A stretch of 64,000 nt of DNA from Phormidesmis priestleyi BC1401 (lineage in GTDB: Bacteria > Cyanobacteriota > Cyanobacteriia > Leptolyngbyales > Leptolyngbyaceae), in assembly GCF_001650195.1 (NCBI RefSeq), contig NZ_LXYR01000027.1, positions 1 to 64,000 on the forward strand, in the 5' to 3' direction. Position 1 is the first letter of the stretch. Every line of letters begins with the position of its first letter. The notes beneath the pieces are model-generated. The model was not told the origin of the DNA. It searched no databases and worked only from the letters and a program-made list of their open reading frames with translations. This document shows positions 2,884-62,638 of this stretch, in pieces. Position numbers and translations under genes: made by a program.

Positions 2884-4635
2884 ATGGTAGCACTCATTGA
2901 TCGCGCAAGCGCTAGCCAGCCCGGTCGTCCTTTGCGACGGCTGACCATTCAGACCGTGGATGTTGTAACCGACACGACGACCCTACGATCGCTCGATTGG
3001 GATCGCGATCGCTTCGACATTGAGTTTGCCTTAGAGAATGGCACCACTTACAACTCGTTTCTAATTCGGGGCGAGAAAATTGCCCTCGTCGATACCTCTC
3101 ACGAAAAGTTTCGTCAACTCTATCTCGATGCCCTGCAAGGGCTGATTAACCCTGCTGACATCGACTATCTGATTATTAGTCACACCGAACCCGATCACAG
3201 CGGATTGGTGAAAGATGTTCTGCAGCTTAATCCTGAGATTACGGTGGTCGGCGCGAAAGTTGCGATTCAGTTTTTAGAAGAACTCGTGCATCAGCCGTTT
3301 AAGCGTCAGGTGGTCAAGAACGGCGATCGCCTAGATTTGGGCAACGGTCACGAGTTAGAATTTGTCGCCGCACCCAATTTGCACTGGCCTGACACCATTT
3401 TCACCTTCGACCACAAAACTCAGACCCTCTATACCTGTGACGCGTTTGGGATGCACTTCTGCGACGATCACACCTACGACGAAGACCTAGAGTTACTTGA
3501 GCACGACTATCGCTACTACTACGATTGTTTAATGGCACCCAACGCCCGATCGGTGCTGGCTGCCCTCAAGCGGATGGCGGCACTGCCCGAAATCACGACG
3601 ATCGCCACAGGTCACGGTCCTCTGCTGCGTCACAATCTTAAAGAACTCGTCGGACGTTACCAGGAATGGAGCCAGACCCAGGCGAAAGCGGCGACAACAG
3701 TTGGCATATTCTACGTGGCGGAGTATGGCTATAGTGACCAAATTGCGCAGGCGATCGCCAACGGCATCACTAAAACGGGTGTGTTGGTCGAACTGATGGA
3801 TCTGCGCGTTGCCGACCCTCAAGAGGTGCGGGAATTAGTCGAAACCTCTACAGGTCTCGTGATCGGCATGTCGCCTCAACTGGGAGACTTTGCTGCCAAC
3901 GCAAAAGCCGGACTCAGCACAATCTTTGCTGCGACGACTGCCAAACAATCCGTCGGCTTATTTGAGGCGGGTGGCGGCGATGATGAATCGGTCTATCCGA
4001 TTCGCAATCAGTTTCAGGAAATTGGGTTAACGGAGGTGTTTCCTCCAATTCAAATTAAAGAACTGCCCAGCGAGGCAACCTATCAACTCTGCGCTGAAGC
4101 CGGGACTGACTTGGGACAGTGGCTCACCCGCGATCGCACGGTCAAACAAATGAAGTCTCTTGATGGTGAACTCGATAAAGCGCTCGGTCGCCTCAGTGGT
4201 GGGCTTTACATCATCACTGCCAAAAAGGGCGATATTTCTAGCGCCATGTTAGCCTCCTGGGTGTCTCAAGCCAGCTTCGAGCCGTTGGGGATCACGATCG
4301 CCGTTGCCAAAGATCGCGCGATCGAATCGTTTATGCACTTGGGCGATCGCTTTGTGCTCAACGTCTTAGAAGAAGGCAACTATCAGATGTTGACGAAGCA
4401 CTTTTTAAGGCGATTTGCGCCCGGTGCCGATCGCTTTGCCGATGTGAAAACCTATCCCGCGACCAATGGTTCCCCCATCCTGGCAGACTCTTTGGCATAC
4501 ATTGAGTGCGAAGTCGTCAGCCGGATGGAATGCAGCGATCACTGGATCGTTTACAGCACAATTAACGCTGGGCGGGTCGCTAAATCTGAAGCGCTAACTG
4601 CCGTTCACCATCGCAAAGTCGGCAACCACTACTAA
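2884..4635 (+). CDS. flv3: Flavodiiron protein Flv3
   Basis: This is an A-type flavodiiron protein that works with Flv1 to pass photosynthetic electrons from the acceptor side of photosystem I to O2, giving water. The order is a metallo-beta-lactamase-like diiron domain (about 30-265), a flavodoxin domain (about 275-415) and the cyanobacterial C-terminal flavin-reductase domain (about 430-583). The iron ligands look complete: HTEPDH, the His in PNLHW, the Asp in TCDAFG and the His in TGHGP. Complete ligands, with flv1 directly downstream and no sll0218-like gene between, identify Flv3 rather than Flv4. The gap to flv1 is 10 bp, so the two are co-transcribed. Confidence 0.93.
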   Translation: MVALIDRASASQPGRPLRRLTIQTVDVVTDTTTLRSLDWDRDRFDIEFALENGTTYNSFLIRGEKIALVDTSHEKFRQLYLDALQGLINPADIDYLIISHTEPDHSGLVKDVLQLNPEITVVGAKVAIQFLEELVHQPFKRQVVKNGDRLDLGNGHELEFVAAPNLHWPDTIFTFDHKTQTLYTCDAFGMHFCDDHTYDEDLELLEHDYRYYYDCLMAPNARSVLAALKRMAALPEITTIATGHGPLLRHNLKELVGRYQEWSQTQAKAATTVGIFYVAEYGYSDQIAQAIANGITKTGVLVELMDLRVADPQEVRELVETSTGLVIGMSPQLGDFAANAKAGLSTIFAATTAKQSVGLFEAGGGDDESVYPIRNQFQEIGLTEVFPPIQIKELPSEATYQLCAEAGTDLGQWLTRDRTVKQMKSLDGELDKALGRLSGGLYIITAKKGDISSAMLASWVSQASFEPLGITIAVAKDRAIESFMHLGDRFVLNVLEEGNYQMLTKHFLRRFAPGADRFADVKTYPATNGSPILADSLAYIECEVVSRMECSDHWIVYSTINAGRVAKSEALTAVHHRKVGNHY

Positions 4636-6367: not shown

Positions 6368-6707
6368 AGATCGGGCTGTGCGATCGTGCGTAAGGATCGT
6401 GAATTAAATCAAACTAAATTCTCCCTCACCCCAACCCTCTCTCTAAGGAGAGGGAGCAAACGTCTAGTTTCCCTTCTCCCCAGGGAGAAGGGGTTAGGGG
6501 AGGGCTTGCCCCACTTCGTGAGGAGGGCAACCCCGTTTTGCAATGACCGACCTTATTTAGTTCACGATCCTCAGAATAAAATCCTCGATCGCCGTTGTCT
6601 ATAGGTTTCGGCTCCGCTCACCTCACTTGATCTCTATCGACCCACTCACTGAACGTCGAGGGTTAAGCGAAGCCCGATCAGTTAAGAGTTTGTTAAGCTG
6701 CAATTTC
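6368..6707. other. Intergenic region with one copy of the hairpin repeat
   Basis: This 340-bp gap lies between flv1 and the convergent gene at 6708. It contains a repeat copy at 6423-6529. The rest (6530-6707) shows no gene. A stretch near 6610-6680 resembles scattered GACTTCGCTC-type intergenic sequence. Open frames here are short and are translations of the repeat. Confidence 0.5.
6423..6529. repeat. Dispersed hairpin repeat, copy 1 (core only)
   Basis: The core runs from CCCTCACCCCAACCCTC through two GC-rich hairpins, CTCTC..GAGAGG and CCCTTCTCCC..GGGAGAAGGG, to the signature AGGGCTTGCCCCACTTCGTGAGGAGGGCA. The same core recurs at 8174, 29318/30338, 41830, 43910, 60335 and 62260. Terminal inverted repeats are not recognisable around this copy. 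Confidence 0.9.
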
Positions 6708-8107: not shown

Positions 8108-8516
8108 GAAACGCTAACCTTGTACAATGGATGCTGATTTAGGAACATGGATTGATTAAGGTGCAACTTCTCACCCTCACCCTAGCCCTCTCCCCAAGGA
8201 GAGGGAACAAGACTCTCACTCCCTTCTCCTGGGGAGAAGGGTTGGCTAGGGCTTGCCCCACTTTTTGAGGAGGGCAGAAGACGCTCACAAGTCTTATAGG
8301 TTCTTTAATCCACGATTCTTAGTGAACGTTCAGTGACATCCAAATTTCAATCAACTGTTCAATAGTGCAATCTGACTAATCAAAAATCACTATCATGAAT
8401 GATGCTACTAGGCATTTTTTCGCAATCCGACTCTTTGAGAATCGTCTCCTCATCCCCCTTCTCAGCCTGAGTTGATCAGACTTTTCATCCCCCACTTCAA
8501 AACATAAATTTTTACC
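8108..8516. other. Intergenic region upstream of accD with one repeat copy
   Basis: This 409-bp gap contains the hairpin repeat copy at 8174-8276. The 240 bp after it are AT-rich and should hold the accD promoter. I see no further gene, RNA or clear promoter box. Confidence 0.5.
8174..8276. repeat. Dispersed hairpin repeat, copy 2
   Basis: It has the same core as the other copies: CCCTCACCCTAGCCCTCTCC, the AAGGAGAGGG arm, CCCTTCTCCTGGGGAGAAGGG, then GGCTTGCCCCAC and GAGGAGGGCA. It is about 240 bp upstream of accD. No clear terminal repeats or target duplication are seen, so this copy may be old. Confidence 0.9.
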
Positions 8517-15439: not shown

Positions 15440-15442
15440 CTA

Positions 15443-15522
15443 GATTTTCTGCACGAATCAGAGCTGGACGTTGATCTCCTTTGAAATGATTTAGGGAGAT
15501 TCTCGAATTCATGCAGGAGGTC
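15443..15522. mobile_element. 80-bp MITE flanked by TA
   Basis: The left end GATTTTCTGCACGAATC (15443) and the right end GAATTCATGCAGGAGGTC (to 15522) form imperfect terminal inverted repeats. Both ends abut TA (15441-15442 and 15523-15524). The ends match the GACCTYCTGCRYGAAT ends of the element at 43888 and the left end at 29299. A TA target points to an IS630/Tc1-mariner-type transposase acting in trans. Confidence 0.75.
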
Positions 15523-15560
15523 TACCAATTTGATCGCCCTTATTGTTCTATCTACCAACT

Positions 15561-29284: not shown

Positions 29285-29298
29285 CAGCCGTTTGGCTA

Positions 29299-29384
29299 GA
29301 CCTCCTGCACGAATACTTCGCCCTCGCCCTCTCCCCAAGGAGAGGGAACAAGAAGTTCTAGCTGCCTTCTCCTTGGGGAAAAGG
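29299..29384. repeat. Dispersed hairpin repeat, left half cut by an IS
   Basis: The half begins after TA (29297-29298) with GACCTCCTGCACGAATACTTCG, matching the right end of the element at 43888 in inverted orientation. It runs through the CCTCTCCCCAAGGAGAGGG hairpin to CTTCTCCTTGGGGAAAAGG (29366-29384). The matching right half resumes at 30338 after the IS. Confidence 0.85.
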
Positions 29385-30337
29385 CAGGGTGGTTTCATAC
29401 AAGGAAATGAAAGACCTGATGCAGTTGATTCGCCCAAGACCTGAGGGCTTGTGGAACGGTGCGCCACCGCTGCCGTCTTGCCAAGGTGATGCAGAACGTA
29501 TTGAGAACTGCCCAATTCACGGGCGCATGTCCCCCTTTGCGAACCGGATCATCTTCCTCGAAGGTGAACATCTTTGACCCAATGTAAGCTACTTTCAATT
29601 TGCCAATGCTGACGGGTAGCTTTGAGCAAGTCCGAAGCCGACCAACGGCGACTGCTGAGATAGCGAACCGTCTCGCAGAAGGGCTGCTGGGCGCGGATGC
29701 CATCTCACGTCACGACCCCGATCGAGGCGAGGCGGGCGTATTTCGCTTGCAGGGTTGGGGGTGAGGTAAACAACTTGCACAGGGCGCTGGACGCTGCGCC
29801 CATGAGAGTGATCTTGCTCTACGGCGACTGCCAAAGCGGGTTCAGTTTAGGTCAGAGTCTCAACGGCGGCATCGGTCTCGGCTTGACTAGATTTGAGTGC
29901 CAGAAGATAGTCCTGTTCGATGGCATTCACCTCGTTTCGGGCAAGGTTGCCAGTGCCCACTGATTAAACGTCTCAATCCATCCCTGAGGCTCGACTTGCA
30001 GAAAACTGTGCCGAAAGGTCGAATAGGACGGCATCGCTTGCCTATTGGGTAAGTCCAGCAGATGACCAAACTCGATTGATGGTGCCAGCAAAAGTCTGCC
30101 AAGGGGCGATACCCGCGGTAGCCGCACAGAAACCCCAGGAGGCTGAGAAATAGAATCATCCGCCAGGGATGTCGACGACCTTTGATCTTTCGAGGGTCGG
30201 GAATTTGCTTTAATTGCTCTATGAGGGTCATGGACTGAATCGATGAATCACTACTCAGTCCATCCTCATTTTCCTACGACTGAGCAGTATCTATTCAGTT
30301 CATTCTCATTTCCTTGCTCTTATATGAAACCACCCTG
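29385..30337 (-). mobile_element. ISAs1-family insertion sequence, decayed (953 bp)
   Basis: The ends CAGGGTGGTTTCATA (29385-29399) and its reverse complement (30323-30337) are perfect 15-bp terminal inverted repeats. A shared CAAGGAAATGA lies just inside both. CAGGG ends are typical of the ISAs1 family. The element splits a dispersed hairpin repeat. It is flanked by a 19-nt direct repeat differing at one position (29366-29384 and 30338-30356), longer than the usual 8-10 bp duplication of this family. The transposase inside is broken. Confidence 0.85.
29395..30231 (-). pseudogene. ISAs1-family transposase, multiply frameshifted
   Basis: The start MTLIEQLKQIPDPRKIKGRRHP and LSLLGFLCGYRGYRPLADF (ATG 30231) is the N-terminus of ISAs1-type DDE transposases. 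The reading then moves to another frame near 30080 (FGHLLDLPNRQAMPSYSTFR, WALATLPET), and again for NAIEQDYLLALKSSQAE. Near the end FTFEEDDPVRKGGHAPVNWAVL is the family's C-terminal 'fREDa.r.rkGnaP.nlavlr' motif. At least three frame changes and internal losses make it inactive. Confidence 0.85.
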
Positions 30338-30420
30338 CTTCTCCTTGGGGAGAAGGGTCGAGGGTGAGGGCTTGCCCCACTTCGTGAAGAGGGCAATTCA
30401 TAGTTGTGTTCAGCAACGCC
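30338..30420. repeat. Dispersed hairpin repeat, right half
   Basis: From CTTCTCCTTGGGGAGAAGG (30338) through GAGGGCTTGCCCCACTTCGTGAAGAGGGC to the terminal TTCAGCAACGCC (30409-30420). This right end belongs to the GGCGTTGCTGAA type, whereas the left half at 29299 has the GACCTCCTGC type, so the composite is chimeric. It ends 8 bp from the recJ stop codon. Confidence 0.85.
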
Positions 30421-41805: not shown

Positions 41806-41975
41806 AGCGTTGCTGAATGCAGATGTGAAATGCCCTCCTCACGAAGTGGGGCAAGCCCTCCCCAACCCTTCTCCTCAGGAAGAAGGGAGCCAGAATTCTC
41901 GTTCCCTCTCCTTTGGGGAGAGGGCTAGGGTGAGGGTCAATCTAGAAGAAGTTTATCCACCAGTTCAGCAACGCC
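41806..41975. repeat. Dispersed hairpin repeat, copy with GCGTTGCTGAA ends
   Basis: The left end AGCGTTGCTGAATGC and the right end CAGTTCAGCAACGCC form terminal inverted repeats around the common core (GCCCTCCTCACGAAGTGGGG, CCCTTCTCCTCAGG, GGGAGAGGGCTAGGGTGAGGG). It lies 56 bp after the dnaX stop codon. A clear 8-bp target duplication is not found for this copy. Confidence 0.9.
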
Positions 41976-43332: not shown

Positions 43333-44007
43333 ATGCACCTGATGAATATTGTGATCTGTCCGGGGATTCATTCATCAGAACTCACTCAATGCTTTATTGC
43401 AGACTTGCAGTTCAGCCACAGTCCTCTTATTTTTCCAGCCGAAAAAGCGCCTGCCTATTCTCCTCTCCACATTTTAAAGTTTTTGTTAGATGCGGATTCG
43501 ATCGAGCCTTTGCTTTTCGTGGCATTTAGCGCTGGGGTTGTGGGCGCGATTGGGGCGGCTCGTCTCTGGCAAAACCAGGGTGGCAGAATTAAAGCATTGA
43601 TTGCGCTGGATGGATGGGGCGTTCCTCTCGCTGGAAACTTTCCGATTCATCGCGTCAGTCACGATCGCTTGACGGCTTGGAGTTCGGCGCTGCTTGACGG
43701 AGATAGCTCAGACAATTTCTATGCTGACCCTGCCGTGGATCATTTGACATTATGGCGATCGCCCCAGACCGTTCAAGGGCAATGGACACCTGCACACAAA
43801 GACTCCCGCTCAATCTCAACTACTGCCGCCAGTTTTATAACTGCGCTAGTGCAGCGATATGAGACCTCTGAACTAAGCGCAACATTAGACCTTCTGCGTG
43901 AATCTGGACAGCCCTCCTCACGCAGTGGGGCAAGCCCTCGCCAACCCTTCTCCCTGGGGAGAAGGGAGCTAGAACCTCCTGTTCCCTCTCCTTGGGGAGA
44001 GGACTAG
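43333..44007 (+). CDS. Alpha/beta-hydrolase-like protein, C-terminus replaced by a repeat
   Basis: The N-terminal region has MNIVICPGIHSSELTQCF and a nucleophile-elbow-like VAFSAGVVGAIGAA, so it is an alpha/beta-hydrolase-like protein of unknown substrate. From about residue 186 on (LLRESGQPSSRSGASPRQPF to SPWGED) the sequence is the translation of a hairpin repeat inserted at 43888. If the element is removed the frame continues LLQRISALRPLQESSGQTV to a TAG at 44133-44135. The encoded protein therefore has an element-derived tail of about 38 residues. Confidence 0.6.
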   Translation: MHLMNIVICPGIHSSELTQCFIADLQFSHSPLIFPAEKAPAYSPLHILKFLLDADSIEPLLFVAFSAGVVGAIGAARLWQNQGGRIKALIALDGWGVPLAGNFPIHRVSHDRLTAWSSALLDGDSSDNFYADPAVDHLTLWRSPQTVQGQWTPAHKDSRSISTTAASFITALVQRYETSELSATLDLLRESGQPSSRSGASPRQPFSLGRRELEPPVPSPWGED

Positions 44008-44037
44008 GGTGAGGGCGAAGTATTCACGCAGGAGGTC
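43888..44037. mobile_element. Hairpin repeat with GACCTYCTGC ends, TA target
   Basis: The left end GACCTTCTGCGTGAAT (43888-43903) matches the right end ATTCACGCAGGAGGTC (to 44037) in inverted orientation with one mismatch. TA flanks both sides (43886-43887 and 44038-44039). The interior is the common hairpin core shared with the GGCGTTGCTGAA-type copies. It lies in the 3' end of the gene at 43333. Confidence 0.88.
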
Positions 44038-60278: not shown

Positions 60279-60300
60279 TTTTTGATTCCTTGCATCTTTC

Positions 60301-60508
60301 AGCGTTGCTGAACCGATGGATGAAGCACAGATTTTGCCCTCACCCTAGCCCTCTCCCCAAGGAGAGGGGACAATAGTTCTGGCTCCCTCCTCCCCGGTTC
60401 TGGCTCCCTTCTTCCCAGTTCTGGCTCCCTTCTTCCCAGGGAGAAGGGTTGGCGAGGGCTTGCCCCACTTCGTGAGGAGGGCATTTCATATCTGCATTCA
60501 CCAACACC
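60301..60508. mobile_element. Hairpin repeat with internal triplication and CATCTTTC duplication
   Basis: The left end AGCGTTGCTGAACC and the right end, inverted, GGTGTTGGTGAATGC are terminal repeats. The 8-bp direct repeat CATCTTTC flanks both sides (60293-60300 and 60509-60516). Inside, a 21-bp unit (GTTCTGGCTCCCTTCTTCCCA and variants) is repeated three times at 60376-60438, making this copy longer than the others. Confidence 0.9.
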
Positions 60509-60574
60509 CATCTTTCTTCGCTCCCCAGGAGAGGTAGAGTTAATAGAAGTCGCGACAGTTTGGGAGCAGCCAAT

Positions 60575-61609: not shown

Positions 61610-61660
61610 GAGTTGGCTCCGAGAGGGACTATTTGCTCGATCGGAGCCATCGCCGACCCT

Positions 61661-61765
61661 GTGCTAACAAACGGATCGCTTGTGGTAACGAACGGGTCGC
61701 CTGTGCTAACAAACGGGTCGCCTGTGCTAACGAACGATCTGCCTGTGCTAACGAACGGGCTACCT
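61661..61765. repeat. 21-bp tandem repeat (five units)
   Basis: Five head-to-tail units of GTGCTAACAAACGGGTCGCCT-type sequence begin at 61661, 61682, 61703, 61724 and 61745, with degenerate copies to about 61840. It follows the ycf66 stop codon. The unit length is a multiple of three and contains no stop in several frames, so short open frames on both strands arise by chance. It occupies the gap 61610-61949, in which I see no gene. Confidence 0.9.
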
Positions 61766-61949: not shown

Positions 61950-62638
61950 CTAGCCAATTATTCGACTCATGTTCTTTAGCACCTGTGCCGCATTATAGAG
62001 TTCTCTTGATGACGCAAAAGGTGCAAATGTTCGAGAGATGGCGTACTGAGGATTTCCTGTCTGTACGAGTTTTACGAAGAAAATGTCATCTCCATTTGTC
62101 ACCACTCCAAAAATGGGTTGCTGAGGATGCGGTGCCATTATGTAAGCCAGCGTTTGCGGTAAAGCGGTTGTTGCAGAAATGGTGGTTCGTTTTGACTCTA
62201 AAATCACAACCCAAAATCGATTTTGGGCGTTGCTGGATCGATCTATGAATCACAGATTTTACCCTCACCCTAGCCCTCTCCTTTAGGGAGAGGGGAAAAG
62301 AGTTCTGGCTCCCTTCTCCCTAGGGAGAAGGGTTGGCGAGGGCTTGCCCCACTTCGTGAGGAGGGCATTTCATGTCTGCATTCAGCAACGCCCGATTTTG
62401 CATCGTCAAAATATCGATTCGTCCGCGCAACGGCTCGACTTCTTCATCGTCTTGATTCAGCACAAGCTCGATCGATGCCTCGCCTCGCATCTTGACGATG
62501 GTCAATAAATCCACGTCGAATCAAATCTAGAGAAGCCCTTTCAGCATCAGTTAGAGGCGGCAGGTTGTTGCACCATTCAGGGAAGAAATCCTCAGCTTCA
62601 GTGCGTCTCAAGCCAAATCGAGTTTCAGTGTCAGCCAC
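61950..62638 (-). pseudogene. HsdR N-terminal-like gene, broken by a repeat insertion
   Basis: The N-terminal part (MADTETRFGLRRTEAEDFFP, LTDAERASLDLIRRGF), a middle part in another frame (GEASIELVLNQDDEEVEPLR, GRIDILTMQNR) and a C-terminal part (VVILESKRTTISATTALPQT, FGVVTNGDDIFFVKLVQTG) resemble cyanobacterial proteins with a type I restriction R-subunit N-terminal nuclease domain. The repeat at 62226-62392 splits DILTMQNR from VVILESK. A separate frame change, probably with a deletion, lies near 62500. Confidence 0.65.
62226..62392. mobile_element. Hairpin repeat with CGATTTTG duplication
   Basis: It begins GGCGTTGCTGGAT and ends CATTCAGCAACGCC as terminal inverted repeats. The 8-bp direct repeat CGATTTTG flanks it at 62218-62225 and 62393-62400. 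The 167-bp length, the core hairpins and the exact duplication show that this family transposes as a discrete unit. It lies inside the HsdR-like gene. Confidence 0.92.

Follow-up and report, generated by a model that had tools for sequence, protein, structure and literature searches.

MITEs with IS1-type ends and a hairpin core common to several MITE types in Phormidesmis priestleyi BC1401

The interrupted gene and the units of the window

The window, the whole 64,000-nucleotide stretch analysed here (positions 1 to 64,000 of NZ_LXYR01000027.1), lies in contig 27 of the 5.55-Mb genome of Phormidesmis priestleyi BC1401, which is assembled in 213 contigs, and its relatives in the sequence collections are cyanobacteria. 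A minus-strand gene towards its right-hand edge is split by a MITE, one of several units in the window that carry a hairpin core or the ends associated with it. These features are as follows.

61953 to 62520, minus strand: gene split by a MITE, with an HSDR_N-type domain (PF04313); the pieces 62520-62389 and 62228-61953 form one open reading frame
62226 to 62392, plus strand: IS1-type MITE of 167 bp with ends GGCGTTGCTGGATC and GGCGTTGCTGAATG (sequence reading and genome search)
62262 to 62366, plus strand: hairpin core, consisting of a triplex-motif-like half, a second hairpin and GCTTGCCCCACTTCGTGAGGAGGGC
62218 to 62225, no strand: left target duplication CGATTTTG, encoding QNR in the interrupted frame (sequence reading)
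62393 to 62400, no strand: right target duplication CGATTTTG (sequence reading)
60301 to 60508, plus strand: IS1-type MITE of 208 bp (sequence reading)
60293 to 60300, no strand: left target duplication CATCTTTC (sequence reading)
60509 to 60516, no strand: right target duplication CATCTTTC (sequence reading)
41806 to 41975, minus strand: IS1-type MITE of 170 bp with two ends, its duplication gone (GATTTCTT / GTTACTTC)
29298 to 30420, plus strand: recombinant or interrupted unit with an IS5-like left end (AGACCTCCTGCACGAAT) and an IS1-type right end (30409-30420)
43888 to 44037, minus strand: IS5-like MITE with core, ends GACCTTCTGCGTGAATC and GACCTCCTGCGTGAAT, TA on either side
6394 to 6570, plus strand: ISAzo13-type MITE with core (GGATCGTGAATTAAAT end), flanked by TAA and TCA
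8142 to 8318, plus strand: ISAzo13-type MITE with core (GGAACATGGATTGATT end), flanked by TTA and TTA
15441 to 15524, no strand: core-free IS5-like MITE with TA-type ends

The copy at 62226-62392 has the termini GGCGTTGCTGGA...TTCAGCAACGCC and the copy at 60301-60508 the termini AGCGTTGCTGAA...TTCACCAACACC; the latter is longer through an internal tandem duplication of about 21 bp (GTTCTGGCTCCCTTCTTCCCA). IS1 ends are present on both sides of three of the seven core-bearing units (41806, 60301, and 62226), while the remaining four comprise one with a single IS1 end and three with other ends. The unit at 29298-30420 contains an ISAs1-like IS remnant of about 950 bp inside the second hairpin of its core; this remnant (29384-30330) has inverted GGGTGGTTTCATA ends and an ISAs1-like open reading frame piece (PF13808). 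A similar insertion in the second hairpin was seen at locus L237 and another insert at L211, and it is possible that ISs target this hairpin. Tandem 21-bp repeats (CCTGTGCTAACAAACGGGTCG-like) occupy 61658-61762, immediately past an open reading frame.

Removal of 62226-62392 together with one CGATTTTG restores a minus-strand reading frame of 131 codons, the product of which matches PF04313 (E value of 3.7e-6). At the occupied site the frame is broken and QNR is encoded on either side of the insertion. Homologs in three other genomes (G029, G006, and G009; 55 to 62% identity) align without a gap across the junction. The reconstructed site thus fits the homologs with a single copy of the repeat; an empty site carrying both copies, which the first-pass annotation had named as evidence against transposition, was not seen.

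Target duplications and the IS1 family

The GGCGTTGCTGAA-ended units are short, noncoding, 45 to 238 bp in length, and bounded by terminal inverted repeats, and they have target duplications of constant length (8 bp), all of which are traits of MITEs. The exact 13-mer GGCGTTGCTGAAT occurs 93 times in the 5.55-Mb genome (reversed pattern, 0), and the 167-bp element used as a genome query gave at least 44 matches, with 40 of 268 candidates scored. As a genome-wide control, nonredundant pairs of ends were collected from the fetched loci, allowing up to 2 mismatches per end, up to 3 summed, and a spacing of 40 to 260 bp. This set comprised 56 paired units, including the copy at 62226 but not that at 60301. 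Perfect 8-bp duplications flanked 16 of the 56 units, compared with 0.04 expected when left flanks were matched to right flanks of different units; with up to one mismatch allowed, the count rose to 33 (0.33 expected). The maximum in 20,000 shuffles was 4 matches. No clear 8-bp duplication was found at the other 23 units, and among all 56 there were no perfect flank matches at lengths of 5 to 7 or 10 to 12. The first-pass annotation had reported exact 8-bp duplications at 62226-62392 and 60301-60508 and had taken the copies for mobile units rather than REP sequences spread by recombination. The duplications are indeed present in the sequence at both copies, and the statistics uphold mobility for the GGCGTTGCTGAA-ended copies; a consistent lack of duplications at intact copies, which would have spoken against it, was not encountered, as many intact copies carry one.

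Three further units are of note. The only 9-bp duplication (CCCCAATTT) was found at L003:1501-1667. A 45-bp unit at L035:1469-1513 amounts to approximately two IS1-type ends alone and has a perfect 8-bp duplication (GATTTTTG). At L143:207-572, in a member of the same genus, two IS1-type units have one end in common, and CACAAAGT lies before both left ends and also after the common right end, as if one unit had arisen by tandem duplication or by insertion beside the other.

Annotated plasmids searched with the extended end yielded a Microcystis plasmid element of 757 bp with a 10-bp duplication, annotated as "IS1 family transposase". Searches with PF03400 found IS1-family genes in 12 of 12 relatives tested. 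A genome of the same genus (G001, locus L176) contains a 755-bp IS flanked by an 8-bp duplication (ATGAAATG), with the left terminus GGCGTTGCATAATGGAGGGATGAATT (the GGCGTTGCATAAT end) and the right terminus GGCGTTGCTGAATGGCGGGATGAATT (the GGCGTTGCTGAAT end). It has an insA-like open reading frame of 127 amino acids and an insB-like one of 99 amino acids (PF03400; E value of 2.4e-15), the latter in the -1 frame downstream of an A7C run; by analogy with IS1, a fused InsAB' protein would be made by -1 frameshifting. Copies of 755 bp in G019 (9-bp duplication) and 781 bp in G003 (8-bp duplication) agree with it. IS1 copies without a duplication are present in G008 and G021, and G005 has two internally deleted copies that each keep one ATAAT and one TGAAT end. 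An IS with these ends and 8-bp duplications, to which the first-pass annotation had looked as the source of transposase, thus exists in the same genus and belongs to the IS1 family.

The match between the MITE and IS1 ends covers 13 bp and ATGAA at positions 20 to 24, and the duplication length fits. In the known IS1 copies an ATAAT end is paired with a TGAAT end, whereas the MITEs of the window have the TGAAT type at both; exact ATAAT ends (GGCGTTGCATAAT) number 0 in the host genome, against the 93 exact TGAAT ends. Because both MITE ends resemble the right end of the IS, the MITEs are not simple internal deletions of the IS copies seen. No intact IS of the relevant IS1 subgroup was found in the host assembly, a draft of 213 contigs. 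It does contain a 124-bp transposase fragment of the right subgroup (76% identity) and five further IS1 genes matching PF03400, all broken or partial. No parent IS was found between pairs of ends up to 6 kb apart in the fetched host loci. The MITEs of the host may now be orphans, or the IS may have been lost in assembly gaps. A broken piece of an IS1-family transposase lies about 130 bp from an IS1-type MITE at L195 (genome C21:54912-55106). No IS1-type ends (24-bp pattern) were found in viral contigs.

A hairpin core common to several MITE types

A core of about 105 bp is common to MITEs whose ends are of five kinds or more. Its 24-nt 3' part occurs 137 times with up to 3 mismatches (reversed control, 0). 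The surroundings of 119 core copies were fetched, mostly by means of the core and some by means of the IS1-type end, so that type 1 may be over-represented among them. Type 1 ends (GGCGTTGCTGAAT) are present on both sides of 42 of the 119 copies. Type 2 ends (TA-GACCTCCTGCRYGAAT) bound 26 of the 119, mostly between TA dinucleotides, and type 3 ends (GGATCGTGGATTAAAT or GGAACGTGGATTTATT) bound 17 of the 119, mostly between TNA trinucleotides. Type 4 ends (TA-GCAATCCTAATTAA) are found at three copies (L061, L239, and L246) and at two more mislabelled by the script, and type 5 ends (ACGCGATGTGCAACT) at four (L232, L238, L256, and L264). The ends of the rest are damaged or mixed. The core borders are identical across types (CCCTCACCC and GAGGAGGGC), and the flanks beyond them are dissimilar. 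Inspection of the sequences did not bear out the script's labels "4/1" and "1/5": the units concerned belong to types 4 and 1 and have an end that is damaged or set at a different spacing. Some type 3 labels at an ISAs1-like insert were dismissed likewise.

Matching ISs were found for three kinds of ends, namely, IS1 (8 bp), IS5-like (TA), and ISAzo13 (TNA). For type 2 ends, G022 has an IS5-like IS with HTH_Tnp_4 and DDE_Tnp_4/DDE_Tnp_1 open reading frames (PF13613/PF13359/PF01609). For type 3 ends, a Calothrix plasmid carries an IS that lies between TTA and TTA and encodes a transposase of the ISAzo13 type (PF07592). In the plasmid collection, type 2 ends gave only weak matches at chance level, and the whole core gave no match. 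Core-free units include the 45-bp unit at L035, 91-bp units in G022, a 68-bp unit in G006, and the window unit at 15441-15524. The first-pass annotation had counted about eight copies in 64 kb as one transposing hairpin family. That density is right for the hairpin core, about half of whose copies in the window have non-IS1 end types, but only three units of the window have both IS1 ends; likewise, transposition stands for the GGCGTTGCTGAA-ended copies, but a single family with a single transposase does not, since the hairpin is a module within several end types that have different duplications.

A tree of 97 cores required 8 changes of end type, compared with a mean of 38.8 for shuffled labels, although the tree rests on a short alignment and most of its branchings lack resolution; this indicates that the core entered each type few times and that the composites expanded afterwards. 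Ends of two types occur together in five units (L024, L083, and L253, types 1/2; L109, types 2/1; and L241, types 3/2), as recombination between cores at separate sites would produce, which shows that recombination between copies also occurs. These five probably mark places where the chromosome was once rearranged through the core.

The exact 21-mer CCCTCACCCTARCCCTCTCCC is the reverse complement of an intrastrand triplex motif (PMC4666352), and the first half of the core is identical at 33 of 35 positions to the Escherichia coli MG1655 motif between lldD and trmL. The boxC-type pattern CCCTCTCCC-loop-GGGAGAGGG-loop-GGGTGAGGG (or its complement) is present, in strict form in 69 of 97 cores. 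By sequence, the first half is thus the intrastrand triplex motif and a candidate for triplex formation. This 21-mer occurs in at least 119 stretches from at least 15 named phyla, mostly Pseudomonadota and Chloroflexota and including some MAGs; the hairpin partner follows in 100 of the 136 matches listed. The 21-mer in question is CCCTCACCCTARCCCTCTCCC. In viral contigs, there are at least 120 occurrences of CCCTCACCCTARCCCTCTCCC and 0 of the reversed pattern. In Cyanomargarita calcarea (L344) the motif lies within an IS1-type unit. In a Caldithrix MAG (Calditrichota; DYKB01000040.1, L390), inverted CTACCGTACACTTTTT-like sequences flank the core in two units, at about 3988-4063 and about 7874, which suggests that MITEs carry it in a phylum other than the cyanobacteria as well. 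Folding of the element is much stronger than that of shuffled sequence (z score of -6.9 as RNA and -5.0 as DNA). No compensatory changes were found in the core among 42 sequences and hence no evidence of selection on RNA structure. The only Rfam match in the window was one tRNA, and the core is thus absent from the curated RNA families.

Holder et al. (2015) described the triplex motif in E. coli and in over 260 further genomes of bacteria, noting its abundance in cyanobacteria and a link to instability; they found no transposon association and left its origin open (PMC4666352). Here the motif lies inside mobile units, so that both the way it spreads and its influence on rearrangement can be tested directly; its position within transposed units here does not imply the same elsewhere.

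Origin of the units and comparison with known systems

The units at 62226-62392 and 60301-60508 are most probably (roughly 0.9) nonautonomous MITEs whose ends (GGCGTTGC) would be recognized by an IS1-family transposase and whose core is a passenger in several MITE systems. An InsAB' transposase, probably produced through -1 frameshifting at the A7C run, would act on both MITE ends and join them to a target cut with an 8-bp stagger, giving the 8-bp duplication. The inner 105 bp or so is a double-hairpin passenger with sharp borders, now present in MITEs of the IS1, IS5-like, ISAzo13, and at least two other systems in this genome; each composite family would then have multiplied, and copies would occasionally have recombined through the common core. 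The ends, the duplications, the empty-site logic, the parent IS in relatives, the presence of one core within several end types, and the units with two end types are direct observations; transposition in trans by that IS and the mode by which the core entered each end type are inferred.

If the mobilizer came instead from another IS family whose duplications are 8 bp long, such as IS6, ISL3, or IS1595, and had GGCGTTGCTGAAT at both ends, the IS1 match would be coincidental. Such an IS would account for the ATAAT end that known IS1 copies have in place of a TGAAT end, and the absence of the IS from the host assembly is in its favor; we nevertheless consider it improbable, as the match to IS1 extends over the 13 bp and the ATGAA, comes with a fitting duplication length, and recurs in several genomes, and no other transposase gene was found within a pair of these ends at the loci fetched. 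There is hardly any likelihood that the copies are REP- or BIME-like hairpins, dispersed through recombination or a REP-associated transposase, with duplications that arose by chance. The high copy number, the strong hairpins (with the z scores given above), and the kinship of the core's first half with the E. coli triplex motif are what such repeats would lead one to expect, but the duplication statistics, the empty site, and the terminal inverted repeats in common with IS1 copies argue against them. The duplications already contradict REP-like spread for the IS1-ended copies, although the core itself may first have moved in that way, and the REP-transposase class was ruled out for these units given that terminal inverted repeats and target duplications are present.

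For the core alone, homologous recombination or gene conversion might have been the main means of exchange among end types, in place of insertion as a module. The five mixed-end units are in keeping with this, yet exchange is unable to put a core into a core-less type, core-free type 1 and type 2 MITEs exist, and each end type has a separate core lineage; we hold this account to be a serious but unlikely one. The preferred reading, a passenger core in MITEs of several transposases, might extend further: it is conceivable, if rather doubtful, that a pan-bacterial triplex module has repeatedly entered MITEs of different transposases as a passenger and that hitchhiking spreads it within genomes and perhaps between phyla. 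If so, recombination between common cores would explain the genome instability reported for the triplex module. MITE carriage is a testable vehicle for a motif present in many bacterial phyla, the mode of spread of which lacked explanation.

IS-derived MITEs with 8-bp duplications are of a known kind. What is unusual is that a single genome holds one conserved double-hairpin module in MITEs belonging to three or more transposase families, together with recombinants between them. That several transposition systems carry the hairpin family as a whole as a passenger is the more interesting result. Cyanobacterial IS1 ISs, such as the Microcystis NIES-2481 plasmid copy, resemble the window elements in their GGCGTTGC ends and 8- to 10-bp duplications but encode a DDE_Tnp_IS1 transposase in two frames, whereas the window elements are transposase-free and have two TGAAT-type ends. 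The small dispersed repeats of 21 to 27 nt described by Elhai et al. in 2008 are reportedly nested in cyanobacterial minitransposons; they resemble the core in being small structured repeats in several host elements but are much shorter than the approximately 105 bp found here. An IS1-like element of Microcystis has been named ISMae3 (PMC11448079). The 187-nt MITE of Microcystis PCC 7806 is, like the window MITEs, a cyanobacterial element with 8-nt duplications and a stem-loop, but its ends start with GGCTCTTCG and match ISL3, whereas those in the window match IS1 (PMC11448079). Nezha (Zhou et al. 2008, cited in PMC10969869) is likewise a cyanobacterial MITE. The triplex motif TM_ECO is of the boxC type (PMC4666352); in contrast to that description, the motif here lies within units that have terminal inverted repeats and target duplications.
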